Positions 3,015 to 57,691 of a DNA stretch of 63,005 nucleotides are shown piece after piece. Position numbers and translations under genes: made by a program. Location: the NCBI RefSeq assembly GCF_003851545.1, contig NZ_BHVX01000020.1:1-63005 (forward strand). Direction: 5' to 3'. The notes beneath the pieces are model-generated. The model made no database searches and had not been told where the DNA came from. It was given only the letters and a program-made list of their open reading frames with translations. The DNA comes from Ralstonia sp. SET104 (GTDB lineage Bacteria > Pseudomonadota > Gammaproteobacteria > Burkholderiales > Burkholderiaceae). The stretch's first letter is position 1. Each line of letters opens with the position of its first letter.

Positions 3015-3935
3015 ATGGACCTGAATGCACTCAAGCTGTTCGTCGAAATCGTCGATGCGGGCAATCTGTCTGCCGCGGCACGCCGGTTGCAGACCACGCG
3101 CTCCAACGTGAGCCATCGGCTCAAGGCATTCGAGCGCGCGCTGGGCGTCCAGTTGCTGCGCCGGACCACGCGCCGCGTGGAGCCCACCGAGGTGGGCGCG
3201 GGCATCTATGAACACGGCCGCAGCATCCTGCGCGAGATGGCCGCCGCCGATGCGCTGGTGTCGTCGCTGGGCAAATCGCTGCAGGGCAGCGTGCGGCTGT
3301 CGGTGCCCACAGGGCTGGGGCACTTGCTGATATCGCCGCTGCTGGTGGCGTTCAAACGCGCGTATCCGGACATCCGCCTGGATGTGCGATTCGACAACCG
3401 CGTGTCCGACCTGATTGGCGAGGACGTGGATGTGGCACTGCGCATCGTGTCGAATCCGCCGGAATCACTCGTGGCAACGTTCATCGATGAGGTGGACTGG
3501 GTGCTGTGCGCGGCACCGGATTATCTGGCTGCGCACGGTGTGCCGAAGTCGATCGATGCGCTGGTCAACCACACCATCGTCAGCGCGCCCGCCGACGGGC
3601 AACCTCTGCGACTATCCGCCCAATCAGGCGATGAGCGCGAGGTCGTCACGCTTGATCCGGGCGTTTCCTCCCACAGCTACCTGTTCCTGCAAGCCGCCGT
3701 GCGCGCCGGCAATGGGCTGGGCATCCTGCCCTACTACGCCGCTGCGGAAGATTTGCGTGAAGGGCATGTCAAGCTTGTGCTGCCGGGGTATCGGTTCAGC
3801 GTGTTTGGTAGCCGGCTTTATATGCTGGCAATGCCCAGCCGCTATCGCACGCTCGCAACGCGGCATCTTCTGGACTTTCTGAAAGACGGGTTGCAAGGCA
3901 AGCTGCCACGCTTGCCCATGAAGGAACGCGGGTGA
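3015..3935 (+). CDS. LysR-family transcriptional regulator
   Basis: A 306 aa regulator. An N-terminal winged helix-turn-helix (MDLNALKLFVEIVDAGNLSA, then SNVSHRLKAFERALGVQLL) is followed by a two-lobed periplasmic-binding-protein-like effector domain (SVRLSVPTGLGHLLISPLL onward). The start at 3015 places the HTH at its usual position. It belongs to the CrgA/PecT-like group of LysR proteins by overall look. Divergent transcription from the acyl-CoA dehydrogenase gene suggests that gene as a target (inference). Its stop codon abuts the stop of metR with no gap. Confidence 0.88.
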   Translation: MDLNALKLFVEIVDAGNLSAAARRLQTTRSNVSHRLKAFERALGVQLLRRTTRRVEPTEVGAGIYEHGRSILREMAAADALVSSLGKSLQGSVRLSVPTGLGHLLISPLLVAFKRAYPDIRLDVRFDNRVSDLIGEDVDVALRIVSNPPESLVATFIDEVDWVLCAAPDYLAAHGVPKSIDALVNHTIVSAPADGQPLRLSAQSGDEREVVTLDPGVSSHSYLFLQAAVRAGNGLGILPYYAAAEDLREGHVKLVLPGYRFSVFGSRLYMLAMPSRYRTLATRHLLDFLKDGLQGKLPRLPMKERG

Positions 3936-42639: not shown

Positions 42640-42888
42640 TCAAGGGGTAACTCCGTCATCATGCCGTGGTTCGATGGGGTCAACCTGTCTCCATGCGCCC
42701 TTTGGCATCTTGGAGCAGGCTGATGACACCCTTGACGCTACCAAGGACTTCTTGTCTTGAGGGACTCGCTCCCTCACCTCTCGGAGGTTGATTGCTTTGC
42801 CCTGACTGGCGATGTCCTGGCAGGTTAAATCGATGGCCTCCCGCGCGGCCGAAGAACGCTTCTTGTGCTGACGTGCAAGGCCGGAAAG
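42640..42888 (-). pseudogene. Possible gene fragment next to the transposon insertion
   Basis: An open frame of 83 codons on the minus strand (LARQHKKRSSAAREAIDLTC, GKAINLREVRERVPQDKKSL, SACSKMPKGAWRQ) has the composition of a real basic, helical protein. It has no start codon and begins only 25 bases from the transposon-split SOS box. An overlapping frame with a GTG start (42680-42892) is the alternative. Family not recognised; the rest of this 400-base stretch shows nothing else. Confidence 0.35.
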
Positions 42889-42912
42889 TCACGTGCTGCC
42901 ACAGTCAAAAAA

Positions 42913-42924
42913 CTGTATATTTAT
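42913..42924. repeat. Left half of the interrupted SOS box: CTGT plus 8 bp target duplication
   Basis: CTGT (42913-42916) is followed by ATATTTAT (42917-42924), directly abutting the transposon end AAGGGG. The same ATATTTAT follows the far right end of the element at 54193-54200. Confidence 0.85.
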
Positions 42925-44012
42925 AAGGGGTATCTATTTAGCTCCAGCAGCCCCATTGATACTGTGATTTCATCCAGCAATGGTATCCGATTGGCTCTCC
43001 CCGGTGTTCTTGCTCACGACATCCCCATACGTCACTGGCGGCGTAACCACCGCTTGCTGCAGCAAGCGGTAAAACAGCATCCCGCGTGAGCTGGATGTGC
43101 GCCGGTTGAAACGGAACACGAATTCATCGAGATAGGCGTCCAGGTGGTCTGGCTGTACAGAGCCATGATGTGTTCCCAGCACCCAGCGCTGTACCAGTGA
43201 GGCGACCCGGTGCACTCCCGCCATGGAGACATGGGCAGGTACGCCTGAGCCGAGCATGACGGTGCGCTGGTGGGTGTAACCCAGTTCTCCCAGAGCGCGG
43301 TATGCCGCCGAACCATCCGTGCGTACCTGGGCTCCAGGCTCGACCACCTCCTGCACAAAGGGGATTACGTGGGTGGCGGCGTCTCGGTCAATGCGGCGTA
43401 ACCGGATGCGCCCAAACCCCTTGGGCTCCACGATCTCCACCGCCATGACCATCAACACTTTGGTGGTGCTGCTCTTGCGCCCTGCAGGGGTGGCGGGATT
43501 CTTGCGATCCGTGATGGACAGGTACGTTTCATCCACCTCCACAAGCCCCTTGAGCTTGTCCCGGCCCGGGCGGACCATGGCACGTCGAAACCGGTGCAGC
43601 ATGGTCCAGGCGGTCTGGTAGCTCCCCAAACCCAATACGCGCTGCAGCCCCAGGGCGCTCACGCCTTGTTTCTGATTGGTCAGGTACCAAGCTGCAGCCA
43701 GCCAGACACGCAGCGGTGTGCGCGTCTTGTCAAAGATGGTTCCAGATGTCACTGTGCCTTGGTACTGGCATGAGCGGCACATCAGGCGGGTGCGGCTGGC
43801 GCGGTACACATCGCCAGCGTTGCCGCAACGCGGGCAGACGAAGCCTTGGGGCCACCGAAGCTTCTCCAGGAACGCCTGGCAAGCCTCTTCGGTGGCAAAC
43901 CAGTCAAGAAATTCGTTCCAGGTGCGGGGGTAGTCCCCTCCAGGAGTTGGCGTTAGCATCTGGGTTTCCATCCAGCTATTCTCACGTCACTGGAGCTAAA
44001 TAGATACCCCTT
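42925..44012 (-). mobile_element. Complete IS1595-family insertion sequence
   Basis: An element of 1088 bases with terminal inverted repeats of at least 23 bases (AAGGGG...GCTCCAG at left, CTGGAGC...CCCCTT at right), carrying one transposase gene. The inner right end is followed by GCATTTGT, which differs from the left ATATTTAT, so this copy is not flanked by its own direct repeat. Its outer end pairs instead with the far remnant. Confidence 0.88.
42970..43971 (-). CDS. IS1595-family (ISXO2-like) transposase
   Basis: A 333 aa DDE-type transposase. The N-terminal zinc ribbon has Cys46, Cys49, Cys65 and Cys68 (CPRCG, CRSC), and TSGTIFDKTRTPLRVWLAAA is characteristic of the family. Catalytic acids Asp147 (VEVDETYL) and Asp219 (RTDGSAAY) are visible, with a C-terminal Asn-containing segment (FVFRFNRRTS). 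It appears intact. Its last 30 residues are also encoded by the truncated copy at the right end of the transposon. Confidence 0.9.
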   Translation of the reverse strand: METQMLTPTPGGDYPRTWNEFLDWFATEEACQAFLEKLRWPQGFVCPRCGNAGDVYRASRTRLMCRSCQYQGTVTSGTIFDKTRTPLRVWLAAAWYLTNQKQGVSALGLQRVLGLGSYQTAWTMLHRFRRAMVRPGRDKLKGLVEVDETYLSITDRKNPATPAGRKSSTTKVLMVMAVEIVEPKGFGRIRLRRIDRDAATHVIPFVQEVVEPGAQVRTDGSAAYRALGELGYTHQRTVMLGSGVPAHVSMAGVHRVASLVQRWVLGTHHGSVQPDHLDAYLDEFVFRFNRRTSSSRGMLFYRLLQQAVVTPPVTYGDVVSKNTGESQSDTIAG

Positions 44013-44024
44013 GCATTTGTACAG
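44013..44024. other. N8-ACAG abutting the inner end of the IS
   Basis: GCATTTGT (44013-44020) then ACAG (44021-44024) follow the IS end CCCCTT, the same arrangement as the outer right end (ATATTTAT-ACAG). It looks like the right half of a second CTGT-N8-ACAG site, only five bases before the IS91 transposase ATG. Confidence 0.6.
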
Positions 44025-44029
44025 TATTC

Positions 44030-45598
44030 ATGTCAGCCACTTCCAAGCCCAAGCTCTACAACCCACGCCACCCCGAACGCACGCTGCTCTACCAAACGGT
44101 AGCCGAGCACTACGAGACCTGGCTAGAGTTGGCCAGCGCGGGTCAGTTCGACGGCCAGGGCGACCACCACACCCCCAAGCCCTTCGTGCGCAAAGCGTTT
44201 GCCAAGTATCTTGAGTGCGGCATCTTTGCCCATGGCTTTGCCCGCGCTCGCTGCGGCGACTGTGGGCACGACTACTTTGTAGCCTTCTCCTGCAAAGGCC
44301 GGGGAGTCTGCCCCTCGTGCACCACGCGGCGGATGGTGGAGACGGCGGCACACCTGAGCGACCACGTCTTCCCCCGCCTGCCGGTGCGCCAGTGGGTGCT
44401 CTCCGTGCCCAAGAGGTTGCGGTACTTCATGCAACGCGACGGAGCGGTGCTGAGCATGGTGCTGCGCATCTTTCTGCGGGTGATCGCACAAACTCTGCAG
44501 ACCCACAGCCCCGGTGCGGCCCATATGGACAAGGCAGGCCTGCACATCGGTGCCATCGCCTTCATTCACCGATTCGGCTCCAGCCTCAATGAACACGTCC
44601 ACTTCCACGTTTGTGTGGTGGACGGGGTGTTTGAGGAAGTGGAGGGCGAGGGCGATGCTGATGCGACCCCTCGAATCTCATCGCCGGGTGTCATCTTTCA
44701 CGCGGCCACCGGCATCGATGCGGCTACCGTGGCCCCAGTGCAGACCACACTGCAAAAACGCATCCTGCGCGCCTTCGTTGCTCGGGGCCTGCTGGAGAAC
44801 TGTGACGCCAAAGACCTGCTGGGCTACAAACACAGCGGCTTCTCGGTGGACGCCGGTGTCTGCATCGAAGCCCACGACCGCGCTGCGCTGGAGCGGCTGC
44901 TGCGCTATTGCGCGCGTCCACCGTTTTCCATGGATCGACTGCGCAAAGAGGGAAGCGAACTGGTGTACCGCTGTGCCAAACAACGCAGCGAGCCCACCAG
45001 TGACCAGCGCGGTGCCAAGGCAGACGAACTGCACCTCACACCGCTGGAGCTCATCGACCGCATTGCCGCCCTGGTACCCCCACCACGCACCCACCGGCAC
45101 CGCTACTTTGGCGTGCTGGCACCGAACTCGCCGCTGAGGGAGGCGGTGACGGCTCTGGCCCAGCCTGCTGCGGCGCAACCAGCCACGGTCGAGACTGCAC
45201 AATCTGGCGCGGGCGTGGGCGTGGGCGTACCTGGGGTGGCGGCGCCGGGCAACGCGGCCACACCCACACCAGAACCTGCAGCACCTCCCAAACGCCCAGC
45301 GCACTACCTATGGGCGGTGCTGATTGCCCGCATCTACGAGGTCTTCCCACTGCTGTGTCCGAACTGCGGGGGGCAAATGCGCATCATTGCCTTCATCACG
45401 CACAGCGCCGAAATCCGCCACATCCTGAACCACATCGGGGTGGACTCGCAGCCACCGCACATAACCCCGGCACGCGGGCCACCGCTGTGGGAGGACTGCG
45501 ACGCGCCGGTGGATGACGGGGTGCAAGGCGAGCCCGATTGGGATCTGGCAGCTCAACCCGCACCCGATTACGAGGTGGACCAGCGCGTCAATTGGTGA
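44030..45598 (+). CDS. IS91-family (ISCR-like) rolling-circle transposase
   Basis: A 522 aa HUH-type transposase. An N-terminal zinc-binding segment (CGDCGHDYFVAFSCKGRGVC then PSC) is followed by the HUH core NEHVHFHVCVVDG (His189, His191, His193) and a candidate nucleophile Tyr in LLGYKHSGFSVD. A C-terminal zinc-like CPNCGGQM and an acidic tail follow. IS91 elements can mobilise flanking DNA by one-ended transposition. The ATG at 44030 lies 18 bases after the IS1595 end. Confidence 0.9.
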   Translation: MSATSKPKLYNPRHPERTLLYQTVAEHYETWLELASAGQFDGQGDHHTPKPFVRKAFAKYLECGIFAHGFARARCGDCGHDYFVAFSCKGRGVCPSCTTRRMVETAAHLSDHVFPRLPVRQWVLSVPKRLRYFMQRDGAVLSMVLRIFLRVIAQTLQTHSPGAAHMDKAGLHIGAIAFIHRFGSSLNEHVHFHVCVVDGVFEEVEGEGDADATPRISSPGVIFHAATGIDAATVAPVQTTLQKRILRAFVARGLLENCDAKDLLGYKHSGFSVDAGVCIEAHDRAALERLLRYCARPPFSMDRLRKEGSELVYRCAKQRSEPTSDQRGAKADELHLTPLELIDRIAALVPPPRTHRHRYFGVLAPNSPLREAVTALAQPAAAQPATVETAQSGAGVGVGVPGVAAPGNAATPTPEPAAPPKRPAHYLWAVLIARIYEVFPLLCPNCGGQMRIIAFITHSAEIRHILNHIGVDSQPPHITPARGPPLWEDCDAPVDDGVQGEPDWDLAAQPAPDYEVDQRVNW

Positions 45599-46008
45599 CC
45601 CAGTGAAGCGGCGGTATCAATCGCTGCGGTGAGTAGCTGCGTGCGCGCCAGACCCAAACGCATATTGCCTCCCAAGCTCTTGCCATTGAGCGGCAAGCGA
45701 GCGCTCAAACTGCTTGTGTCGAACGTGTTTCGAGGCCCAAAACGCGTGCCATACTTGGCCTCATGCGGTTGAATTTCCTATCCGTACGGATTTGATGGAC
45801 ATTGCAACTCCATGAGGGCGGATGGCCGCCCGACGTGATGCGGACCGCGAAGTACGGAACGCCTGGAACCGGCGACCTCATGCCGGCCGCCCGCTTTGTT
45901 GTCGAGTGCCTGATTTATAGCTGAAATGCCGCCAGCCTCCGGCCTTCGTGATGACATCACCGACCCTGCCAACCGCAGGAACGCGCGTGCCGGCTGAATC
46001 GCGAGGCC
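45599..46008. other. Non-coding stretch after the IS91 transposase
   Basis: No gene seen. It probably holds one terminus of the IS91 element, whose ends lack inverted repeats and so cannot be placed by eye. A short GC-rich inverted repeat lies near 45850-45895. Confidence 0.4.
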
Positions 46009-46284
46009 TCATTCCCCGCCGCCAAACAGATCCCGGAACTTCTGAGCCGCATCTTCCGCACCCGTGTTCTTGCTCATCGGCGTGCCCTTCGGATACTCCT
46101 CCGCAATGCGGTCTTCCCAATAGGTGGTGGGATACGGCGCGCTGCACAGACGGCGAAACACTTCCTGCGGCACGTGCTTGTAGGCGCGCACCGTCTTGTC
46201 GTCCCAGTGCAGCTCGAGCTGCTGGGTGCTGGCGTCGTAGTCGGCGCGGCGGATGCGCCCGTTGGTGAAGGTCTTGCTCTGCAT
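46009..46284 (-). CDS. KTSC domain protein
   Basis: A 91 aa protein whose core (SKTFTNGRIRRADYDASTQQ, LELHWDDKTVRAYKHVPQEV, FRRLCSAPYPTTYWEDRI) matches the KTSC domain, named for a C-terminal lysyl-tRNA-synthetase-linked module and often found alone. Function unknown. The C-terminus is a charged tail ending DLFGGGE. The gene lies between the IS91 transposase and the phosphodiesterase, transcribed leftwards. Confidence 0.72.
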   Translation of the reverse strand: MQSKTFTNGRIRRADYDASTQQLELHWDDKTVRAYKHVPQEVFRRLCSAPYPTTYWEDRIAEEYPKGTPMSKNTGAEDAAQKFRDLFGGGE

Positions 46285-46481
46285 GTTGGGCTCCGAAGGG
46301 AGCTCGCGACGGGGCGGGCCCTGCCGGATCGTCGCACATCCCAGAGCCGCTCCTGTTTTGATAGCTGGTGGCGCTTATTTAAAAAGCCCAAACGACCGAT
46401 TTGACTTGGAAAAAGACAGCACCCACAGGTGCCGTCTTGGCCGCCCCAACCAGCACGGAGCCGCAGCGCCGATGCCCCGCC

Positions 46482-47273
46482 TTACTCGCCGAGCCAGAAG
46501 CGTTCGCTGCGGTCGAGGAAGTCGTGCACGTGGACGGTGACCGTGTCTTCACCCAGCAGCACCACGCCGTACTGTGGCGGCTCGTGGCTGCCACCGATCT
46601 TGGGCGTGTCGTCCAGCCGCAGCGCCACCTGGTGGTTGGTGCCGCGCAACGTGGAGTACGGGATGCCGAGCCAGGAGCCGAAGATGGGCCGGTGCACGTG
46701 GCCGAAGAACAGGTGGCGGATGCGGTGCTCCTGCCCCTGCAGGGCGCGCCGCAGCGGTGCGGGGTCGAGCAGGGCGATGCGGTCCATGGACGGGATGCCG
46801 AGCGCGAAGGCCGGGTGGTGCATGAAAAGCAGCACCGGCTCGTCGCTCTGCGCCAGCCGCTCGGCCAGCCACTGCGCGCGCTGTTCGCACAGCACGCCGT
46901 GGCTCACGCCGGGTTCGTTGGTGTCGAGGAAGAGGCCGCGGTAGCCACCGATGGCCACCTCGTACTGCACGAAGCCGTTGGCGTCCACCGGCACCTGCGG
47001 GAAGTGCTCGCGAAAGCGCTCGCGGCTGTCGTGGTTGCCCAGGATGGGAAACACCGGCATGGGCAGGCGGCCGAGCTGCTGCGCGAGCTGGCGGTAGGCG
47101 TCCGGGTGGCCGGTGTCGGCCAGGTCGCCGGTGACAACGCACAGCGCGGCGTCGCCATGCTCTGCGATCACGCTGTCGATGCAGCGGGCCAGGCGGCGGT
47201 ACGGGTCGAGCCCGTAGAGCGCCTGCCCCTGCGCCACCAGGTGCGTGTCGGTGATGTGGATGAACTTGAACAC
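46482..47273 (-). CDS. Calcineurin-like metallophosphodiesterase (GpdQ/CpdA type)
   Basis: A 263 aa two-metal phosphoesterase. Ligand motifs in order: ITDTHL (Asp, His), VVTGDLADTG (Asp), ILGNHDSRERF (Asn, His), FMHHPAF (His) and FGHVHRPIFG (His, His). GpdQ relatives hydrolyse glycerophosphodiesters; CpdA relatives hydrolyse cyclic nucleotides. Context decides: it is the last gene of a Ugp-like ABC operon, 17 bases after the binding-protein gene, which favours glycerophosphodiester or a similar imported phosphodiester. Confidence 0.85.
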   Translation of the reverse strand: MFKFIHITDTHLVAQGQALYGLDPYRRLARCIDSVIAEHGDAALCVVTGDLADTGHPDAYRQLAQQLGRLPMPVFPILGNHDSRERFREHFPQVPVDANGFVQYEVAIGGYRGLFLDTNEPGVSHGVLCEQRAQWLAERLAQSDEPVLLFMHHPAFALGIPSMDRIALLDPAPLRRALQGQEHRIRHLFFGHVHRPIFGSWLGIPYSTLRGTNHQVALRLDDTPKIGGSHEPPQYGVVLLGEDTVTVHVHDFLDRSERFWLGE

Positions 47274-47290
47274 GATGCGGTCTCTCCTCT

Positions 47291-48553
47291 TCAGCGCGGT
47301 AGCAGGGCCTGCACGTCGCGCGTCATGGTGGCCAGCGCCTTGTCCGGGGCCACGTCCTTGGCCACCACGGTCTGGATGTGGTCCTTGATGACGTCGGTGA
47401 TCTTCAGGCCGCTCTCACCCGGGAAGGCATACCAGCCGGTCAGCACCGGCAGCTGCTTGATGGCGGTGAGGTAATTGGGGTTCTGCTCGTAGAAGGGCTT
47501 GAGCAGGGCCGGGTCGTTGGCCGGCAGGGCGTTGGCCGGGAAGTAGCCGGTGCCCTTGACCATGACGGTGGCGCCCTGCGGGCCGGTGGCGAACTTGATG
47601 TATTCCCAGGCGGCTTTCTGCTTGGCCGGGTCCTTGGCGAACAGCATTGCCACATTGCCGCCGGCGGGCAGGCGGCCGTTCTTCTCGATCGGCATGCGCG
47701 CGGTGCGCAGGTCAAAGCGCTTGCCGACCTGCTTGGTGGTCAGCCCCAGGCGCGAGGTGGAGGTGACCAGCACGGCCAGATTGCCGGTGATGAAGTCCTG
47801 GTTGGCGTTGCTGAAGGAGATGTTGCGCATCTCGCCTTCGTTCACGGCCTTGGCGAAGGTCTGCATGGCGGTCTTGCCGGCAGCACTGTCGAAAGCCACC
47901 TTCTTCTCGTCCGGCGTCAGCATGGTGCCGCCGTTGGAGAAGACCAGTGCCTGCCACATCCAGTTGCCGGTGATCTCCCAGTCCATGTGCAGGCTGTGGG
48001 TGCCGGGGTTGGCGGCCTTGGCTTTCTTCGCTACCTCGACGATGCCGTCCCAGGTGGCGGGGAACTGCTCGGGAGTGACGCCGGCCTTGCGCACCAGGTC
48101 GGCATTGAAGTAGACGATGGGGGTGGAGAGCGAGAAGCCGATACCGACCTGCTTGCTGCCGATCTGGCCCAGCGAGAGCAGCGCCTTGTCGTAACCCATC
48201 TTGCCCCAGTCCTTCTCGGCCTGGATGAGCGGAGTCATGTCGACGGCAATGCCGCGGTCGACGAACACGCGCTGGCGGTTCAGGCCCTGGTAAGACACGT
48301 CGGGCAACTGGTTGGTAACCGCCTGGCGCAGCGCCTGCTGCGTAGCTTCCTCGTAGCCCGGCGTGGACGCACGGAAGACCACCTTGTACTGCGGGTACTT
48401 CGCCATGAAGTCCTTGGCGATCTTCTCGTGCACGTCCTTGAAGATTTCCGGGTAGGGGTAGTCCACGACGATTTCCAGCGGCTGCTGCGCATGCGCCCAG
48501 CCGCAAGCCAGCAGCACGCCGGCTGCGATGGATTTCAGGACAACTCGTTTCAT
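47291..48553 (-). CDS. ABC transporter extracellular binding protein (UgpB-like)
   Basis: A 420 aa family-1 solute-binding protein. The signal peptide runs MKRVVLKSIAAGVLLACGWA to AHAQ; the body includes PDVSYQGLNRQRVFVDRGIA, GFSLSTPIVYFNADLVRKAG and NGRLPAGGNVAMLFAKDPAK. Resemblance is to glycerol-3-phosphate/sugar binders of the UgpB/MalE superfamily. The start at 48553 is supported by GGAG eight bases upstream; a GTG three codons earlier is possible. Confidence 0.87.
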   Translation of the reverse strand: MKRVVLKSIAAGVLLACGWAHAQQPLEIVVDYPYPEIFKDVHEKIAKDFMAKYPQYKVVFRASTPGYEEATQQALRQAVTNQLPDVSYQGLNRQRVFVDRGIAVDMTPLIQAEKDWGKMGYDKALLSLGQIGSKQVGIGFSLSTPIVYFNADLVRKAGVTPEQFPATWDGIVEVAKKAKAANPGTHSLHMDWEITGNWMWQALVFSNGGTMLTPDEKKVAFDSAAGKTAMQTFAKAVNEGEMRNISFSNANQDFITGNLAVLVTSTSRLGLTTKQVGKRFDLRTARMPIEKNGRLPAGGNVAMLFAKDPAKQKAAWEYIKFATGPQGATVMVKGTGYFPANALPANDPALLKPFYEQNPNYLTAIKQLPVLTGWYAFPGESGLKITDVIKDHIQTVVAKDVAPDKALATMTRDVQALLPR

Positions 48554-48610
48554 GGGATGCACTCCTTGATGGATGAAGGGAGAAAGAAAGGGAAACGGAA
48601 AGAGGAAAGA

Positions 48611-49456
48611 TCAGCCTTTGACGCCGGTCAGCGTCACGCCTTCGATGAAGCGCTTCTGGGCCGCGATGAACAGCAGCAGCAGCGGTGCCGTGATGAGCAC
48701 GGTGCCGGCCATGAGCGGGCCGTAGTTGATGCCGGCCTCCTCGTTGCGGAAGAACATGGTGCCCAGCGGCGGCGTGGCCAGCTCGGGGGAGGAGATCACC
48801 AGCAGCGGCCAGAAGTAATCGTTCCAGTGCCAGACGACCGAGAAGATGGCGAAGGCAAACAGCGCCGGCACGGCAGTGGGCAACATCACACGCCAGACCA
48901 GCTCGAACTCGCTCATGCCGTCCAGGCGCGCGGCGTGCACCAGGTCGTCCGGCACGGTGCGGAAGAACTGGCGCATCAGGAAGATGCCGAAGGCCGAGAT
49001 GGAAAACGGCACGATCAACGCCGACATGGTGTTCAGCATGCCCAGGTGGTGCAGCATCACATAGGTCGGAATGGCCGTGGCCTGGTGCGGGATCATCAGC
49101 GCCAGCAGCACCAGGCGCCAGGCCCAGGTCTTGCCGCGGAACTGCAGCTTGGCAAAGGCGTAGGCCGCCGGCAGCAGCACCACGATCTGCAGCACCAGGA
49201 TGGCGGTACAGACCAGCAGGCCGTTCCACAGGTAACGCAGCAGGGGCACACGCGTCAGCGCCTCGGTGTAGTTCTCCACCAGCGCCAGCCGCGTGGGCAA
49301 CAACGTCAGTTCGCGCGTGAACACCTCGTCCATCGGCTTGAGGGAGGTCAGCACCATCCAGATGAAGGGCGCCAAGAAGACCAGCGCACCCGCCATCAGC
49401 AGCAGGTGGCGCAGCGCGCGGAAGAGGAAGGTGCGTGCGGAGAAGGTGAGCATCAT
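48611..49456 (-). CDS. ABC transporter permease (UgpE/MalG type)
   Basis: A 281 aa inner-membrane permease with six helices. The EAA-type cytoplasmic loop that contacts the ATPase is AARLDGMSEFELVWRVMLPT. N-terminal text APFIWMVLTSLKPMDEVF is typical of MalG/UgpE proteins. It follows the partner permease gene after 10 bases. Confidence 0.92.
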   Translation of the reverse strand: MMLTFSARTFLFRALRHLLLMAGALVFLAPFIWMVLTSLKPMDEVFTRELTLLPTRLALVENYTEALTRVPLLRYLWNGLLVCTAILVLQIVVLLPAAYAFAKLQFRGKTWAWRLVLLALMIPHQATAIPTYVMLHHLGMLNTMSALIVPFSISAFGIFLMRQFFRTVPDDLVHAARLDGMSEFELVWRVMLPTAVPALFAFAIFSVVWHWNDYFWPLLVISSPELATPPLGTMFFRNEEAGINYGPLMAGTVLITAPLLLLFIAAQKRFIEGVTLTGVKG

Positions 49457-49466
49457 CGGGCGTTCT

Positions 49467-50339
49467 TCAGGCGTAGTGGGTCTTGCGTTCCATGGCGCTG
49501 TGCTGCACCTGGGTCAGGAAGAAGATGCCGGCGATGAACACCACCGTCATGGCGCTGGCGTAGCCCATGCGGAAGAAGCCGAAGCCTTCGGCGTAGATGG
49601 TGTGCAGCAGCACCTCGGTCGACTTGTTGGGACCGCCGCGCGTGAGCACGTGCACGGTGTCGAACACCTGCAGTGCGCGGATGGCGCAGACGGTGACGAC
49701 GAACAGCGTGGTTGGCCCGAGCAGCGGCCAGGTGATGCGGCGGAAACGCTCGCACGGGTGCGTCACGCCGTCGAGCGCCGCCGCGTCGCGCACGTCCTGC
49801 GGAATGCTCTTGAGGCCGGCAAGAAAAAGCACCATCGCCAGCCCGGCCATCTGCCACACGCCAATGGCCGCCAGCGAGTACAGCGCCAGCCGGCGGTTGT
49901 TGAGCCAGTCCTGCGGCTGCAGGCCGACCCACTGCAGCATGTGGTTCACCAGCCCGGCGCTCGGGTGCAGCAGGAATTGCCAGACCACGGCCATGGCAAT
50001 CAGCGTCGATGCCACCGGCATGAAGAAGGCGGTGCGGTAGAAGCCGCGCAGCTGGGTGTCGGATTCGATCAGCAGCGCCGTCCCCAGGCCGATGGCCACG
50101 GCACCGGCAGTCACCAGCACGAGGTAGAGCAGCGTGTTGGCGAGCGACTGGCGGAACACCGGGTCGCTCCAGAGTTCGGCATAGTTGGCCAGGCCGACCC
50201 AGTTCAGCGTGGCGGCGCCGAACTGCCAGTCGGTCAGCGACAGCATGGCGACGACGGCCACCGGCCCGAGCAGGAACACAAGCAGCAGCACCGTGGCCGG
50301 TGACAGCAGCAGCAGGGTATTGAGCGGATGCACGCGCAT
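49467..50339 (-). CDS. ABC transporter permease (UgpA/MalF type)
   Basis: A 290 aa permease with six helices; the EAA loop is DAAALDGVTHPCERFRRITW. The opening LLLLSPATVLLLVFLLGPVA and AFFMPVASTLIAMAVVWQFL are typical of UgpA-like proteins. It lies between the ATPase and the second permease, with 2- and 10-base gaps. Confidence 0.92.
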   Translation of the reverse strand: MRVHPLNTLLLLSPATVLLLVFLLGPVAVVAMLSLTDWQFGAATLNWVGLANYAELWSDPVFRQSLANTLLYLVLVTAGAVAIGLGTALLIESDTQLRGFYRTAFFMPVASTLIAMAVVWQFLLHPSAGLVNHMLQWVGLQPQDWLNNRRLALYSLAAIGVWQMAGLAMVLFLAGLKSIPQDVRDAAALDGVTHPCERFRRITWPLLGPTTLFVVTVCAIRALQVFDTVHVLTRGGPNKSTEVLLHTIYAEGFGFFRMGYASAMTVVFIAGIFFLTQVQHSAMERKTHYA

Positions 50340-50341
50340 GG

Positions 50342-51518
<1,177 letters not shown>

Positions 51519-51526
<8 letters not shown>

Positions 51527-52235
51527 GGCAGTTCTCCGGAGAAGAGGTCAGGACGTTGGACAGCTGGCCGAGCAGCCAGGGAGTGAACGTGTCGTAGTGG
51601 TCGAAGCCCGTCACCTGGGGCAGCAGGTCGGCCGGCTGGCCGGCGTAGCCCGCGCGGTGGGCCGCGAAACGCACGCCGGCGGCTTCGGCGCAGCGTGCAT
51701 CCATGGCCGAGTCACCGACGAACAGCACCTGCGCGGCCGGCACATCGAGCTGCTGCAGCACGCGCAGCAGCGGGTCGGCCGCCGGCTTGGGCCGCGCAGC
51801 ATCACCCAGCCCGACCACGGCATCGAAACCGATGTCGAGCCCGGTGCAGGCCAGCAGGGCTTCAATGGAAGGCCGGTCGCGGTTGCTGCACAGGCCAAGC
51901 AGCAGGCCCTGCGACTTGAGTTCCGCCAGCAGGGCCGGCACACCGGCGTAAGGCGTGGCCTGGGCCAGCCAGTGCTGCGCATAACGGGTGAAGTAGCTGG
52001 CCTCCAGGGCGCTGGCCTGCTCGGCCGCGGCCGCCTCGGCCTGCAATGCCAGCGCGTGTTGGAACATCGGCCCCAATCCCTCGCTGAGCGCCGGCCGCAA
52101 CCGGTCCGCCGGCACCGTGCGCAGCCCGGCTTCGGCCAGCACCTCATTGGCCGCCGCGGCCAGGGAAGGCAGGGTGTCGAGCAGCGTGCCATCGACATCG
52201 AAGACGACTGCTCGGATATGATCGTTTCTGTTCAT
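51519..52235 (-). CDS. HAD-superfamily phosphatase (phosphoglycolate-phosphatase-like)
   Basis: A 238 aa HAD hydrolase when started at 52235 (MNRNDHIRAVVFDVDGTLLD); upstream ATG codons at 52244 and 52265 are possible but lie inside the inverted-repeat operator region. Motif I is VVFDVDGTLLDT (nucleophile Asp), motif II LCSNRDRPS, the Lys is in RPKPAADPLL, and motif IV is VLFVGDSAMDARCA. It is the first gene of the ABC operon, so it may dephosphorylate the phosphomonoester released after uptake and diester cleavage. Confidence 0.87.
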
Positions 52236-52258
52236 ATTAGCCATGTTATGAACAGAAG
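52227..52258. promoter_or_regulatory. Perfect 11+11 bp inverted repeat, likely operator of the ABC operon
   Basis: TTCTGTTCATA and TATGAACAGAA are perfect complements separated by 10 bases. The repeat overlaps the HAD start codon region and lies in the divergent interval facing the DeoR gene. A second perfect repeat, GTCAT-TTTG-ATGAC (52262-52275), adjoins it. The encoded DeoR protein is the natural candidate to bind. Confidence 0.7.
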
Positions 52259-52350
52259 GTGTCATTTTGATGACTCAGCCTGAATCTATAGTGGCCGTAC
52301 GCCCGGGCCTTGCACGGCCCGATCTGACCGTCTGAACTGCCCCGCCGCCC

Positions 52351-53145
52351 ATGCTCAAAGCCGCACGCCACAAGGAAATCGTCGCCCTCGTCCAGGGCGG
52401 CGGCATCGTCGAAGTCAATGCCCTGGCACAGCGTTTCCAGACCTCGCCCATCACCATCCGGCGCGACCTGATCGAGCTGCAGGAACGCGGCCTGCTGGAG
52501 CGCACGCGCGGCGGCGCTGTCTCCGGTGAGGTGATTGCCGAGGGCTGGGCGCGTTACGAGAGCATCAGCTACGCCGAGCGCGAGCGCGAGCAGTTCCGTG
52601 AAAAACGCGCCATTGCGGAACTGGCGGCGCAACTGGTGTCGGACGGCGACTGCATCCTGGTCAACGGCGGCACCACCTCGCGCCACCTGGCCGAGGCGCT
52701 GCGCGGCCACCAGAACCTGCACGTTGTCACCAACGGCCTGACAGTGGCCATGGAGTTCGCACGCAGCCAGAACGCCGCGGTCTACCTGCTGCCGGGCATG
52801 GTGGACTTCAGGAAGATGACCTCGGTCAGCCGGCCGGCGCCGGGCAGCTTCGACGACATCACGGTGCGGGCCGCGTTCCTCGGCGTGCACGGCATCTCGC
52901 CGGCCGGCATCGGCATGCTGTCGCCGGAAGAAGCCGCGATGAACCGCGCCTTCATCGAGGCTGCCCAGACCGTCAACGTGCTCGTCGATTCATCCAAGTT
53001 CAACTCGCAGGCGATCTTCCGCATCTGTGAAATGAACCGTGTCACCCGGGTCGTGACCGATACCGGCATTGCGCCCGCAACACGCCAGGCACTGGAAGCC
53101 CTTGGTATCGAGGTCTTGCTGGCCTCCCCAGAAGAAGCCGCCTAG
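52351..53145 (+). CDS. DeoR/GlpR-family transcriptional repressor
   Basis: A 264 aa regulator. The HTH at the N-terminus (VEVNALAQRFQTSPITIRRD then LIELQERGLLERTRGGAV) is followed by a DeoR sensor domain (VNGGTTSRHLAEAL, VVTNGLTVAMEFA, FLGVHGISPAGIGMLSPEEA, VDSSKF). DeoR proteins sense phosphorylated sugars; GlpR senses glycerol-3-phosphate. It is divergent from the HAD-ABC operon across 115 bases that carry the inverted repeats. Confidence 0.9.
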   Translation: MLKAARHKEIVALVQGGGIVEVNALAQRFQTSPITIRRDLIELQERGLLERTRGGAVSGEVIAEGWARYESISYAEREREQFREKRAIAELAAQLVSDGDCILVNGGTTSRHLAEALRGHQNLHVVTNGLTVAMEFARSQNAAVYLLPGMVDFRKMTSVSRPAPGSFDDITVRAAFLGVHGISPAGIGMLSPEEAAMNRAFIEAAQTVNVLVDSSKFNSQAIFRICEMNRVTRVVTDTGIAPATRQALEALGIEVLLASPEEAA

Positions 53146-53190
53146 TTTCGCGCCGACGCGCGCGCCACTGTGGCGGCGCTTTTGCATGCC

Positions 53191-54147
53191 ATGACCTACG
53201 ATGCGGCCATGACACGGCCCATCATCCTGTTCGGTGCCTTCGACCGCCACAACTTCGGCGACCTGCTGTTGGCGCACATCGCGGCGGCGCTGCTGCCGGG
53301 GCAGGAACTGGTGTTCGCCGGCCTGGCCAACCGAGACCTGCGCGCCGACGGCGGCCATCAGGTCCAGGCCCTGACGCAGTTGGCTGCCGATTGGGATGCT
53401 CACCCGGCCACGCTGATCCACGTCGGGGGCGAAATCCTCAGCTGCAGCGCCTGGCAGGCGGCCGTGATGCTGCTGCCACCGGACGAACTGCAAGCCACCC
53501 TCGCTTACCTGGAAGCCCGGCCGCTGGAGCAGGCGGCCTGGGTGCAGCGCATGGTGGGCAGCGCGGCGCTGGCGCCCTACACGCTGTCGCGCTCGCTTTT
53601 TCCCGCGCTGACACGGGTGGCCTATCTCGCGGCGGGTGGCGTGCAGCTGGACACATGTGAACCGGCGCTGCGTGCCGAGGTACTGGCCAACCTGCAGGCG
53701 GCGGATGCAGTGAGCGTGCGCGATGGCCAGACCCTGGCGCATCTGGCGGCAGCGGGCATCACCGCGCATCTGCTGCCCGACCCGGCGGTGATGGTGGCCG
53801 AGCTGTTTGACGCACGGATACGTCAGCACGCAGCCGGTGGCGAGATGGCACAGGTGTTGCGCACGTTCCCGCAGGGCTATCTTGCCGTGCAGTTCAGCGC
53901 CGACTTCGGCGACGACGCCACGCTCACCACCATGGCCCAGCAACTCGACCAGGTAGCTGCGGCCACCGGTCTTGGCGTGGTGCTGTTTCGTGCCGGCGCT
54001 GCGCCCTGGCATGACGACTTGGCTTGCCTGCAGCGCGTCGCCGCGCGCATGCGCCTGCAGCAAGCGGTGGTTACGCCGCCAGTGACGTATGGGGATGTCG
54101 TGAGCAAGAACACCGGGGAGAGCCAATCGGATACCATTGCTGGATGA
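53191..54147 (+). pseudogene. Polysaccharide pyruvyl transferase-like gene, 3' end replaced by IS
   Basis: The reading frame opens TRPIILFGAFDRHNFGDLLL, typical of the CsaB/polysaccharide pyruvyl transferase fold, with IHVGGEILSCSAWQA, AADAVSVRDGQTLAHLAAAG and LLPDPAVMVAEL. The last 30 codons are not native: from 54055 the sequence is the end of the IS1595 transposase (QQAVVTPPVTYGDVVSKNTG). The native C-terminus is lost, so the product is a chimera and probably inactive. Starts at 53191 or 53209. Confidence 0.75.
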
Positions 54148-54192
54148 AATCACAGTATCAATGGGGCTGCTGGAGCTAAATAGATACCCCTT
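54055..54192 (+). mobile_element. IS1595 remnant forming the right end of the transposon
   Basis: These 138 bases are identical, in inverted orientation, to 42925-43062 of the complete IS as far as I could compare. They include the last 30 codons of its transposase and the terminal repeat. The break point with the pyruvyl-transferase gene is CTGCAG at 54055-54060. Confidence 0.9.
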
Positions 54193-54204
54193 ATATTTAT
54201 ACAG
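54193..54204. repeat. Right half of the interrupted SOS box: 8 bp duplication plus ACAG
   Basis: ATATTTAT (54193-54200) matches the left duplication exactly and is followed by ACAG (54201-54204). Joined to CTGT at the left boundary it restores CTGT-ATATTTAT-ACAG. Confidence 0.85.
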
Positions 54205-54311: not shown

Positions 54312-54749
54312 ATGATGCAAACAGGACAAGTGGTACGCATGCCCTCGCGGGCTCCGGGGAACAATACGATGACGACAGCCACGGCGCGGGCCGGCAGCAA
54401 GGGGGAGGCGCTACGGCTGGTGGGGTCGGGCGATGTCGCGGTCGTCGAACTGGACTACGAGTCGGGCTGGCAAGACGCAGTTGAGCTGGGCCGGCTTGGC
54501 CGGGCGGTTGGCGTTCGCGTGGAGTTCCGTGGCCACGAGAGCGTTGCCGTCCAATCACCCGCAGCACTCGTTGCCGGACTTGCGCGCGCGAAAGCCACGT
54601 TCCGACAACGAAACCTCTACTGTCAGTTTGATCTTGACCTGTTGCCTGCCGGTGAGTTGGAACGGCTTGATTCGAAAGCAAAGAAGCTGGGGGACTACGT
54701 TCTAGCGGGCCACTTACTGCGCGGGGCCGATTCGATATGGACGGAGTAA
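54312..54749 (+). CDS. Hypothetical protein formerly next to the SOS box
   Basis: A 145 aa protein (MMQTGQVVRMPSRAPGNNTM; core ALRLVGSGDVAVVELDYESG; C-terminus GDYVLAGHLLRGADSIWTE). The start is uncertain: 54312, 54315 or 54369. No family is recognised. Before the transposon arrived, its start lay roughly 100 bases from a near-consensus LexA box, so damage-inducible expression is possible, now probably disturbed. It is followed by a terminator. Confidence 0.6.
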   Translation: MMQTGQVVRMPSRAPGNNTMTTATARAGSKGEALRLVGSGDVAVVELDYESGWQDAVELGRLGRAVGVRVEFRGHESVAVQSPAALVAGLARAKATFRQRNLYCQFDLDLLPAGELERLDSKAKKLGDYVLAGHLLRGADSIWTE

Positions 54750-54992: not shown

Positions 54993-56048
54993 ATGACAAG
55001 CGCAGCGGACTTGATTGTGACAACGCCCAGCGGCCTCTACTGCCCAGCCGGCGACTTCTACGTGGACCCATGGCGGCCGGTTGACCGCGCCGTCATCACG
55101 CACGCCCACAGCGACCACGCTCGCATCGGGCACCACCATTACCTCGCAGCCGCGCCAAGTGCTGGCGTGCTGCGTGCGCGCCTGGGAGACGACATCCCCC
55201 TGCAGACGTTGCCGTACGGCGAATCCATCGTCCATCACGGTGTCCGGCTGAGTTTTCATCCGGCGGGGCATGTGTTGGGGTCTGCGCAGGTGCGGCTGGA
55301 ATACGGCGGCCACGTGTGGGTGGTCTCCGGTGACTACAAGGTGGAAGCTGACAGCACCTGCACGCCTTTTGAGCCGGTGCGCTGCGACACTTTCATCACC
55401 GAGTCCACCTTTGGGCTGCCGATCTACCACTGGCGGCCGCAGACCGAGATCTTTGCGCAGCTCAATGCGTGGTGGCGCGGCAATGCCGACGCCGGCCGCA
55501 CCAGCGTCGTGTTTTGCTACGCATTCGGCAAGGCCCAGCGCATTCTGTCGGGGCTCGAGACCAGCATCGGGCCCATTGTTTCGCACGGCGCCATGCTGCA
55601 ATTGGACGCCACATATCGGCACGCGGGCATTGCACTGCCACCAACGCAACTTGCGACCGACGTGCCGCGCGCAGAATTGCGACGCGCACTCGTGCTTGCC
55701 CCGCCCTCCGCGCAACGCACGCCGTGGATGCGCCGCTTTGGCGACTATGCCGATGCCTTTGCGAGCGGCTGGATGCAGCTTCGCGGGGCGCGGCGGCGGC
55801 GCGGTGTCGATCGCGGCATCGTACTGTCCGATCATGCTGACTGGCCTGGGCTGCTGCAGGCCATTGAAGCGACGGGCGCCACGCGGGTCTACGTCACACA
55901 TGGGCAGGTTGCGCCGATGGTGCGCTGGTTGTGCGAGCGCGGTCTGGATGCACGCGCCTTCGTCACCGAGTATGGCGACGAGCGTGAAGAAAGCGATGCA
56001 AGCGAAGCGCGCGACACGCCTGCGCCAGTGGATCCGCCCGCGCCATGA
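54993..56048 (+). CDS. Ligase-associated DNA exonuclease (metallo-beta-lactamase fold)
   Basis: A 351 aa MBL/beta-CASP-like nuclease. The metal-binding motif is ITHAHSDHARIG (HxHxDH), with further ligands in HPAGHVLGSAQV, VSGDYKVE and GIVLSDHADWPG. In related bacteria this gene is linked to an ATP-dependent ligase, an Lhr helicase and a phosphoesterase as a nucleic-acid repair cluster, as seen here. Its 3' end overlaps the ligase start by 4 bases. The C-terminus is an acidic, Pro-rich tail. Confidence 0.92.
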   Translation: MTSAADLIVTTPSGLYCPAGDFYVDPWRPVDRAVITHAHSDHARIGHHHYLAAAPSAGVLRARLGDDIPLQTLPYGESIVHHGVRLSFHPAGHVLGSAQVRLEYGGHVWVVSGDYKVEADSTCTPFEPVRCDTFITESTFGLPIYHWRPQTEIFAQLNAWWRGNADAGRTSVVFCYAFGKAQRILSGLETSIGPIVSHGAMLQLDATYRHAGIALPPTQLATDVPRAELRRALVLAPPSAQRTPWMRRFGDYADAFASGWMQLRGARRRRGVDRGIVLSDHADWPGLLQAIEATGATRVYVTHGQVAPMVRWLCERGLDARAFVTEYGDEREESDASEARDTPAPVDPPAP

Positions 56049-57691
56049 GAGCCTTTGCCGATCTGTACGCGCAGCTGGACGCCACCACATCAAGCAACGC
56101 CAAGCTGGCCGCCCTGGTGGCCTACCTGCGCACCGCGCCCGACGCCGACGCCGCGTGGGCGGTCTACTTCCTGGCCGGTGGCAGGCCTCGGCAGTTGGTG
56201 CCGGTGCGCATGCTCGCAACCTTCGCGCAGACCACGTCCGGCTTGCCCGAATGGCTGTTTGACGAGTGCTACCAAGCCGTGGGCGATCTGGCCGAGACCA
56301 TCGCCCTCGTCCTGCCCGATGCTGACCACGCCGACAACGCCAGCCTGGCCGAGTGGATGGAAGCCCGCCTGCTGCCGCTGCGCGGGCAGCCGCCCGAAGT
56401 GGTACTGCCGCGCCTGACCGAGCTATGCCGCGGCCTGCCGCTGCATGCGCGGCTGGTGTTGATGAAGCTGATCACGGGGGCGTTTCGCGTGGGGGTGTCA
56501 AAACTGCTGGTGACGCGCGCGCTGGCCGAAGCGGGCGGCACTGATCCCAAACACGTGGCGCAACGGCTCATGGGCTATACCGACATCGGGCGGGCGCCTA
56601 CTGCCGAGCGCTATCGCGCGCTGCTGGCAGATGCAAGCGTCGATGGCCACGTGCTCGATACCGGGCACCCGTATCCGTTTTTTCTTGCACACCCGCTGCA
56701 GGCTGACATAGAAACCTTCGACACCCTGCTCGGCCCGCCGGCTGAATGGCAGATCGAATGGAAGTGGGATGGCATCCGTGCGCAGCTCGTGCGCCGCGCC
56801 GGCAGCACATGGCTGTGGTCGCGCGGCGAGGAACTCATCACTGAGCGGTTTCCTGAACTATCGGCCATGGCAGAAGTGCTGCCTTCCGGCACGGTGCTCG
56901 ATGGCGAGATCGTGGTCTGGCGCGCAGGCCGTGTGCAGCCGTTTGCGCTGCTCCAGCAACGCATTGGCCGCAAGACGCTGACCGCACGCGCAATGCGCGA
57001 TGCGCCGGCCGTATTGCTGGCGTATGACCTGCTCGAATGGAAGGGGCAGGACTGGCGCGAGCGCACGCAAGGCGAGCGGCGCGCGCAGCTTGAACGTGTT
57101 ATCGCAGAGTGCATCCATCCGGCGCTGGAGCTGTCTACGCTGCTGCAGGGCGAAGATTGGCTGCATCTTGGGCGCCAGCGTGAAGCCTCACGCGCGCTGG
57201 GCGTGGAAGGGCTAATGCTCAAGCGGCGCGACGCGCGCTATGGCGTGGGTCGCACCAAAGACGTGGGCGTGTGGTGGAAGTGGAAGATCGATCCGTTTTC
57301 GGTAGACGCCGTCCTCGTCTATGCGCAGCGCGGCCACGGCCGGCGCGCAAGCCTGTATACCGACTACACCTTCGCCGTGTGGGACGCGCCCCCCGATGCG
57401 GCCGAGCGCAAGCTGGTGCCCTTTGCCAAGGCGTACTCCGGCCTGAGTGACGCAGAGATCCGCCAAGTCGATGCGCTCATCCGCAAGACAACAGTGGAAA
57501 GCTTTGGGCCCGTGCGCAGCGTAACGCCGACACTGGTGTTCGAACTCGGCTTTGAAGGCGTTGCCCGCAGCACGCGCCATAAAAGCGGCATTGCGGTGCG
57601 GTTTCCGCGCATGCTGCGCTGGCGCCATGACAAGCCGGTCGCTGAGGCCGATACGCTGCAGACACTGGAAAGCCTGTTGCCCCCATCATGA
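56045..57691 (+). CDS. ATP-dependent DNA ligase of the Lhr cluster
   Basis: A 548 aa ligase. An N-terminal ligase_N helical domain (about 1-200; [20 protein letters not shown]) is followed by the nucleotidyltransferase domain with nucleophile Lys240 in [11 protein letters not shown]. Other motifs are [19 protein letters not shown] and [14 protein letters not shown], and an OB-fold follows ([20 protein letters not shown]). It overlaps both neighbours by 4 bases. Distinct from the essential NAD-dependent LigA. Confidence 0.93.

Follow-up and report, generated by a model that had tools for sequence, protein, structure and literature searches.

The stretch of DNA analysed here (the window) comprises 63,005 nucleotides of contig NZ_BHVX01000020.1 from Ralstonia sp. 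SET104 and carries a mobile element of 11,268 base pairs (bp) at 42925-54192, which begins with AAGGGG at 42925, ends with CCCCTT at 54192 and splits a sequence resembling an operator of the SOS repressor LexA. On the forward strand, the element lies between two copies of the octamer ATATTTAT (42917-42924 and 54193-54200), which are bordered in turn by CTGT on the left (42913-42916) and ACAG on the right (54201-54204). The duplicated octamer forms the eight-base spacer (N8) of CTGT-N8-ACAG, the LexA consensus of beta- and gamma-proteobacteria as given in passages of PMC3375312, PMC4151985 and PMC13393415. Rebuilt without the element and one repeat, the site has both arms, the 8-bp spacing and an AT-rich core, and differs at one of 16 positions from the consensus (CTGTATATTTATACAG versus CTGTATATATATACAG). 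An original prediction, made from the sequence alone, had placed arms and repeats, equated the duplication with the N8 of the box and counted 15 of 16 matches, all of which proved right to the base.

The left end of the element is a complete insertion sequence (IS) of the ISCsp2 type, which spans 1088 bp on the minus strand (42925-44012) and has inverted repeats AAGGGGTATCTATTTAGC; relatives at least 97% identical with both ends placed measure 1087-1089 bp. Its transposase of 333 amino acids (42970-43971, minus strand) contains the DDE_Tnp_IS1595 (PF12762, 1.1e-35) and Zn_ribbon_IS1595 (PF12760, 2.1e-15) domains and is 100% identical over 333 residues to plasmid transposases annotated as ISCsp2, and the terminal inverted repeats and 8-bp target duplication of this IS1595 member are likewise present in the window. 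At the right end, only a 138-bp solo inverted copy of the outer end of ISCsp2 was found (54055-54192, plus strand), consisting of the 3' end of the transposase gene and the inverted repeat. The compound transposon of the original prediction is thus borne out in its outer ends and duplication, whereas a structure with two full IS copies was rejected, and the element is better named a pseudo-compound transposon made of one full ISCsp2 and a solo inverted end. A consensus scan of the right junction found no sigma-70-type promoter and no terminator. Elsewhere in the genome, a second transposase with an IS1595 domain, to which P0001 has no tblastn match, lies on contig C28 (3612-4019; locus L006).

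A further half-box, CTGT-ACAAATGC, abuts the inner end of the left IS (44013-44024, minus strand), and the same flank occurs with both arms at loci L010 and L092. We read it as a putative relic of an earlier insertion in the promoter box CTGT-ACAAATGC-ACAG of an ISPps1-type tnpA gene.

Both outer flanks of the window element show homology to two divergent genes with a single LexA-like box between them. To the right of the split box lies a gene of 145 amino acids (54312-54749, plus strand), homologues of which were found in two sister genomes with an intact box upstream, and the left flank (42843-42912, minus strand) is homologous to the start region of a divergent gene of 106 amino acids. At locus L186 (1500-2446), the two genes diverge from a common box, CTGTATATTTATCCAG; the window flank 42843-42924 matches its 106-amino-acid side and the right flank its 145-amino-acid side. 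The same pair and box recur at L185, so that the uninterrupted box ACTGTATATTTATCCAGTATC stands at the matching point in two sister genomes, and the joined window flanks align to both loci as an unbroken ACTGTATATTTAT(A/C)CAGTATC. As the genus contains multiple copies of the pair, these loci are homologous and not proven orthologous; within this limit, the empty-site comparison proposed in the original prediction turned out in its favour. A further copy of the pair, L114 in the L186 genome, was entered independently: its box is the same, down to the N8, and contains an IS of the clade that is 78% identical. Two copies of the pair, in the window and at L114, are thus occupied. Near the IS at L111 there is a gene distantly related (31%) to the 106-amino-acid gene.

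In the window genome, CTGT-N8-ACAG occurs at only 36 places, compared with 24 for a reversed control pattern. This small number and the intact box in the sister-genome pairs make the match at the window site more than chance. CTGT-N8-ACAG boxes precede lexA (identified by its LexA domains) and a gene read by eye as a UvrD-type helicase, and five of the 36 empty places score at least 9 with the N8 matrix described below. An empty GC-rich place at window positions 3297-3312 is an example of the background sites.

Target sites of other copies

In the species-genome collection, a scan turned up 364 relatives, of which the best 80 by similarity were collected, and 16 plasmid loci (8 chosen as close and 8 as distant relatives) were added together with copies from a sister genome, from order and class samples, from four chosen genomes or records and from viral contigs. 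IS ends and duplications were placed by script and duplicate insertions were removed. Transposases at least 60% identical to that of the window defined the close set, which comprised 59 distinct two-ended insertions; this number counts sites with differing flanks as independent, including some in which related hosts are hit at one gene or a single mobile element is represented more than once, and loci at contig ends lose sites. L061 and L064, both before ISCR-type genes, share one 16-mer, as do L016 and L085.

In this close set, both arms (left CTGT, right ACAG) were found at 43 of 59 sites, the left arm only at ten, the right arm only at three and neither arm at three. Counted by ends, the tetramer at exactly position -12 is CTGT in 126 of 155 distinct clade ends, CTGG in 13, CTGA in three and CTGC in two, and at 36 other offsets tested CTGT occurred at most twice each. 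The commonest-base consensus of the 59-site matrix is ACTGTATATATATACAGT, which equals that of a strong LexA box. The flanks of other copies, whose collection the original prediction had called for, hence place most of them in the same target and in the exact register, and a chance coincidence at one site was rejected on these grounds. By eye, the IS was co-directional with the SOS gene at about 21 sites and opposite at 13, a bias that is not convincing and was not used. Megablast gave no match to the IS in complete E. coli genomes, and phage records yielded only two matches, both below 60% identity. At L080 (Acidovorax sp. GW101-3H11), the IS ends occur as two sets and the sequence includes an N, which points to a nested or misassembled locus; the outer set shows CTGT-ATATTTGT-ACAG beside a gene read by eye as PA0069-like.

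Genes beside the 59 sites were named from 123 frames, selected out of 186 obtained by simple frame calling. These frames were compared with NCBIfam and Pfam in two sets, after which 40 selected proteins, including 30 suspected SOS neighbours, were scanned singly with NCBIfam and 10 with Pfam; the scans covered 259 residues at most, which leaves many NCBIfam scores below the whole-protein cut-off. SOS or repair-type genes adjoin 30 of the 59 sites. NCBIfam named 28 of the 30 suspected SOS neighbours, corresponding to 28 of 59 sites, and the count of 30 includes a FAN1-type gene at L072 (found with Pfam, without a family in NCBIfam) and an ATP-dependent DNA ligase gene at L063, while the suspected SOS neighbour at L020 had no family in the scans. 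Most frequent were genes for ImuA (L009, L029, L042, L043, L065, L112) and for PA0069-family radical SAM proteins (L014, L026, L037, L041, L053, L058), followed by UmuD-type genes (L021, L023, L034, L066), of which those at L021 and L023 face an SOS-associated SRAP peptidase gene on the opposite side. TIGR03916 DNA modification/repair radical SAM proteins are encoded beside L056, L078 and L154 and error-prone DnaE2 beside L060 and L126, and single sites adjoin genes for RecA (L024), LexA (L048), a DNA polymerase IV type (L025), DNA polymerase II (L085), DinG (L011), UvrA (L074) and a UvrD/PcrA-type helicase (L073). We take the PA0069 and TIGR03916 families to be members of the LexA regulon. 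Judged by their sequence and neighbours, the occupied boxes look like real SOS operators.

One promoter box is used repeatedly, namely that of ISPps1-type IS91/ISCR genes (window 44013-45598; L010, L013, L018, L061, L064, L087 and L089-L092), which results in ISCsp2-ISPps1 pairs on IncP and other plasmids. Copies on a Sphingobium plasmid with readable left ends sit in the ISPps1-type box already known from beta-proteobacterial plasmids; copies in alphaproteobacteria, which have another LexA motif, were considered as a test of LexA dependence and rejected, as those on this plasmid are not independent.

Genomes with several insertions illustrate the choice of sites. In Thiomonas delicata, all three copies fetched (L024-L026) adjoin recA, a DNA polymerase IV type gene and a PA0069-type radical SAM gene, and in Paraburkholderia solitsugae all three (L072-L074) adjoin FAN1-type, uvrD-type and uvrA genes. 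Acidovorax temperans DSM 7270 holds nine copies in eight distinct sequences (L007-L014, L154), among them two ISPps1-type promoters occupied in opposite orientations. An N8 position matrix was trained on 48 of 56 sites, after three badly placed pairs had been dropped and with the eight A. temperans sites held out. The occupied A. temperans sites scored 11.9, 11.6, 11.4, 10.1, 7.9, 5.0, 4.3 and 2.6; of these, L008 (10.1) carries the defective right arm ACAT and L011 (2.6) carries CCAG. All 42 empty CTGT-N8-ACAG sites, counted with exact arms and leaving variant-arm boxes aside, scored 3.7 or less and thereby below seven of the eight occupied sites. Among the exact CTGT-N8-ACAG sites of this genome, the IS took the best matches and left the rest. 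Not every LexA box is filled: the A. temperans lexA gene keeps two empty CTGG-N8-ACAG candidate boxes, and CTGG-type candidate boxes lie upstream of lexA in three hosts. Two sites elsewhere, L083 (score -3.5) and L094 (score -1.5), combine matched arms with poor cores.

The preference ends at the border of one clade. Relatives with less than 60% identity contributed ten distinct two-ended insertions, none of which has an arm on either side. Four of the ten lie in one genome (53% identical) and have almost the same terminal repeat, AAGGGGTATCC; for L123 the placing of the ends is weak, and at L124 an ACAG lies one base farther from the IS. LexA-box targeting as a general habit of IS1595 was rejected on this count, and the preference is a property of one clade. 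The claim of the original prediction that the transposase selects SOS boxes accordingly survives for the ISCsp2 clade and fails for IS1595 in general. In a tree of 96 transposases, all 67 rows with the target label, which requires CTG and CAG triplets and includes single ends, fall inside one clade of 81 rows (support 100/97), ten rows of which have no usable or mixed ends; L053 stands outside on a long odd branch. A comparison of 85 of the 96 rows, with partial or odd rows left out, revealed 14 residues, among them W18, K82, Y96 and S221, that at least 92% of the 72 clade members share but no more than 15% of the 13 outgroup sequences possess, which makes them candidates for determinants of target specificity. 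In viral contigs, an end-pattern search gave 16 ends, six with a CTGT arm (L193, L195, L197, L199, L200, L201) and ten without; five of the six armed ends are on contigs already known from the viral-contig sample, L195 is new (57% match over 74 residues), and eight of the ten armless ends lack a transposase match.

Proposed targeting mechanism and rival explanations

Taken together, these sequence comparisons make LexA-box targeting by the ISCsp2 clade well supported. We consider it probable that ISCsp2 and its close relatives have a derived, narrow specificity for LexA operators, with direct reading of the palindrome by a transposase dimer as the likeliest means. As the insertion pattern shows, ISCsp2 and relatives from about 64% transposase identity upwards insert into DNA of the LexA operator type of beta- and gamma-proteobacteria and cut both strands at the borders of N8 with CTGT and ACAG, whereby N8 becomes the target duplication. 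According to the proposal, the dimer would read the two arms directly, its two-fold axis coinciding with that of the operator, and would prefer the AT-rich alternating core that is also found in a good LexA box. In the window, an ISCsp2 copy in the ISPps1-type promoter box may first have been joined in one unit with a solo IS end on the far side of a transport and phosphatase gene cluster, after which the pseudo-compound unit presumably moved as a whole, as the outer duplication shows, into the LexA box of the divergent gene pair. The operator would thereby be divided into half-boxes with an expected loss of LexA control, and derepression of both neighbours, as proposed in the original prediction, is plausible.

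Direct reading of DNA is favoured over a use of LexA itself because the insertion register is exact and symmetric within the operator and because sites with poor cores, L083 and L094, are matched in their arms. A transposase brought to operators by binding LexA or a LexA-DNA complex, perhaps with LexA cleavage in the SOS response as the gate, would account for sites that behave as LexA operators down to their CTGG, CCAG and TCAG one-arm variants, the first of which recurs in candidate boxes before lexA in the three hosts, and it would suit hosts that, where a class is named, are beta- or gamma-proteobacteria apart from one plasmid. Such delivery is less natural, however, since LexA would cover the very bases being cut: the insertions lie symmetrically within the 16-mer and not beside it. 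The two poor-core sites also speak against it, as does the transposase, in which Pfam finds only the usual zinc ribbon and DDE domains, and we regard guidance by LexA as unlikely. Far less probable is a broad insertion into AT-rich DNA followed by selection, such that copies survive mainly in SOS operators. Distant IS1595 members do make 8-bp duplications without arms, which renders a broad ancestral habit likely, but selection would hardly produce an exact base register at 126 of 155 ends with two at most at any other offset, nor occupied sites in A. temperans that are nearly all the best-scoring ones, and a common selective benefit is hard to see for sites that include promoters of mobile ISCR/IS91-type elements and genes without a known function. 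We give equally little credence to a palindrome that merely resembles a LexA box, with SOS genes owning most such palindromes and LexA biology being incidental. It is compatible with direct reading by the transposase, and the poorly scoring L083 and L094 and the sites without a recognised SOS or repair gene suit it; yet the match spans arms, core and outer bases and extends to the CTGG variant shared with candidate lexA boxes, an agreement that would be surprising without past adaptation to LexA operators.

Several observations weigh against specificity for LexA operators, beginning with the sample itself, which from the genome scan took in the best 80 of 364 relatives. At 29 of 59 sites, the scans found no recognised SOS or repair gene; these include IS91/ISCR-type transposase promoters (L010, L061, L064) and genes left unnamed by the scans. 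Apart from the Sphingobium plasmid, all hosts of named class belong to the beta- or gamma-proteobacteria, and dependence on LexA is inseparable from the rest because of this host range and the non-independence of the Sphingobium copies. Copies outside CTGT-N8-ACAG, which the original prediction had named as a possible refutation, do exist: 11 of the 155 clade ends are without the CTG triplet, and they are exceptions without a pattern. In two of the 11 (L047, L054), CTGT lies one base off the expected position, pointing to an error in placing the end, and two more (L032, L046) are single ends at loci cut by a contig edge. The three two-ended sites scored as armless differ among themselves: manual placing of the ends gives L043 both arms, with two N8 copies that then differ, L053 has decayed arms (TTGT/CCAG), and L069 is ambiguous. 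On the tree, L069 and the single ends L032, L046 and L054 are armless rows inside the 81-row clade, and the target label as scored changes five times, or at least four by starred branches; we interpret the extra changes as end-placing errors and decay. Two armless viral ends, L191 (60% over 25 residues) and L198 (58% over 31), match the transposase and are possibly the two ends of one insertion by an element at or beyond the clade border.

Specificity of the transposase for LexA operators would have further consequences. If LexA protects its box, cleavage of LexA would open targets and tie transposition to DNA damage, which is speculation. A tentative extension, which we rate as possible but doubtful, is that the transposase recognises operators exposed on LexA cleavage, so that copies fill strong boxes and rewire the SOS regulon; the filling of strong boxes is suggested by the empty CTGT-N8-ACAG sites left in A. 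temperans, all of which are poor matches.

Related systems

The literature searched, with ISfinder outside it, contained no report of an IS1595 member or any other IS that targets LexA boxes. By this search, an IS specific for the operators of one repressor would be new; the targeting of regulatory DNA by DDE transposases is already known. With ISCsp2 and IS1595 as described, the window element has the zinc ribbon and DDE domain, the terminal inverted repeats and the 8-bp duplications in common; the LexA-box target is not in the descriptions found, and the distant IS1595 members examined are without it. As far as the sections of PMC3942029 go, TnGBS, ISLre2 and the ISKra4 group (p-MULT transposases) insert 15-17 bp upstream of sigma-A promoters, and they resemble the ISCsp2 clade as DDE elements with derived, clade-specific targeting of regulatory DNA. 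They aim, however, at promoters in general and at a distance, whereas the ISCsp2 clade inserts at the centre of a repressor operator with no convincing orientation bias.

Mobile elements have been linked to LexA boxes before: excerpts of PMC13393415 describe the transposase genes of ISCR1, ISCR2 and ISCR8 as LexA-repressed, with functional LexA boxes in their promoters. ISPps1 is not among the elements named in those excerpts, and the report fits the ISPps1-type site CTGT-ACAAATGC-ACAG of the window inner flank and of plasmids, where ISCsp2 enters the box before IS91/ISCR genes. The relation is a different one, since LexA regulates the transposase of the ISCR elements and its box is the insertion target of ISCsp2. 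Integron-like elements likewise have a site-specific target in an operon, rulAB, which we take to be umuDC-like. In the part of PMC4542609 at hand, these elements insert in rulB, which is also present on plasmid pWW0; their target is the rulB gene and not LexA operators across a regulon. ISApl4/Tn7560, an IS1595-type pseudo-compound transposon (PMC12561309), similarly mobilises passenger DNA by an IS1595-type IS, but belongs to an IS1016-like subgroup, carries other cargo and has no LexA-box target described in the text available.

With few exceptions, insertions of the ISCsp2 family lie exactly at the centre of LexA boxes, the switches of DNA-damage repair genes, and the family thus seems to aim at one whole stress-response network. 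Such aim at the operators of a single global repressor would make the transposon a natural probe for the regulon, and its insertions would amount to an empirical map of LexA boxes, each marking one, including boxes before genes without a known function. Mobile DNA could thereby rewire the DNA-damage response, error-prone polymerases included. Furthermore, the border between the specific clade and its non-specific relatives would offer a testable case of a DDE transposase gaining target specificity.

Passenger and flanking genes

Adjacent to the left IS lies an IS91/ISCR-like transposase gene of the ISPps1 type (44030-45598, plus strand), which matches Y2_Tnp (1.9e-37) and, under its cut-off, NF052416 (6.8e-77); plasmid records annotate ISPps1 beside ISCsp2. 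The passenger gene region proper (46482-53145) encodes, on the minus strand, a metallophosphoesterase (46482-47273) and a solute-binding protein (47291-48562), both named by family match, as well as permeases and an ATPase (48611-51526) and a HAD-like phosphatase (51519-52265), which were assigned by eye. A DeoR-type regulator, again a family match, follows on the plus strand (52351-53145). The last passenger gene, polysaccharide-pyruvyl-transferase-like (53170-54147, plus strand; PF04230 at 5.1e-05, below the curated cut-off), runs with its 3' end into the solo IS end. None of the plasmid records covers 80% of the passenger DNA, the best being a Delftia acidovorans plasmid with 47% at 77% identity.

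For the 145- and 106-amino-acid genes of the target pair, Pfam, NCBIfam and PADLOC gave no family. Just right of the insertion, at window positions 54993-57691, a metallo-beta-lactamase-fold gene is followed by an ATP-dependent DNA ligase-like gene, the latter judged by eye.

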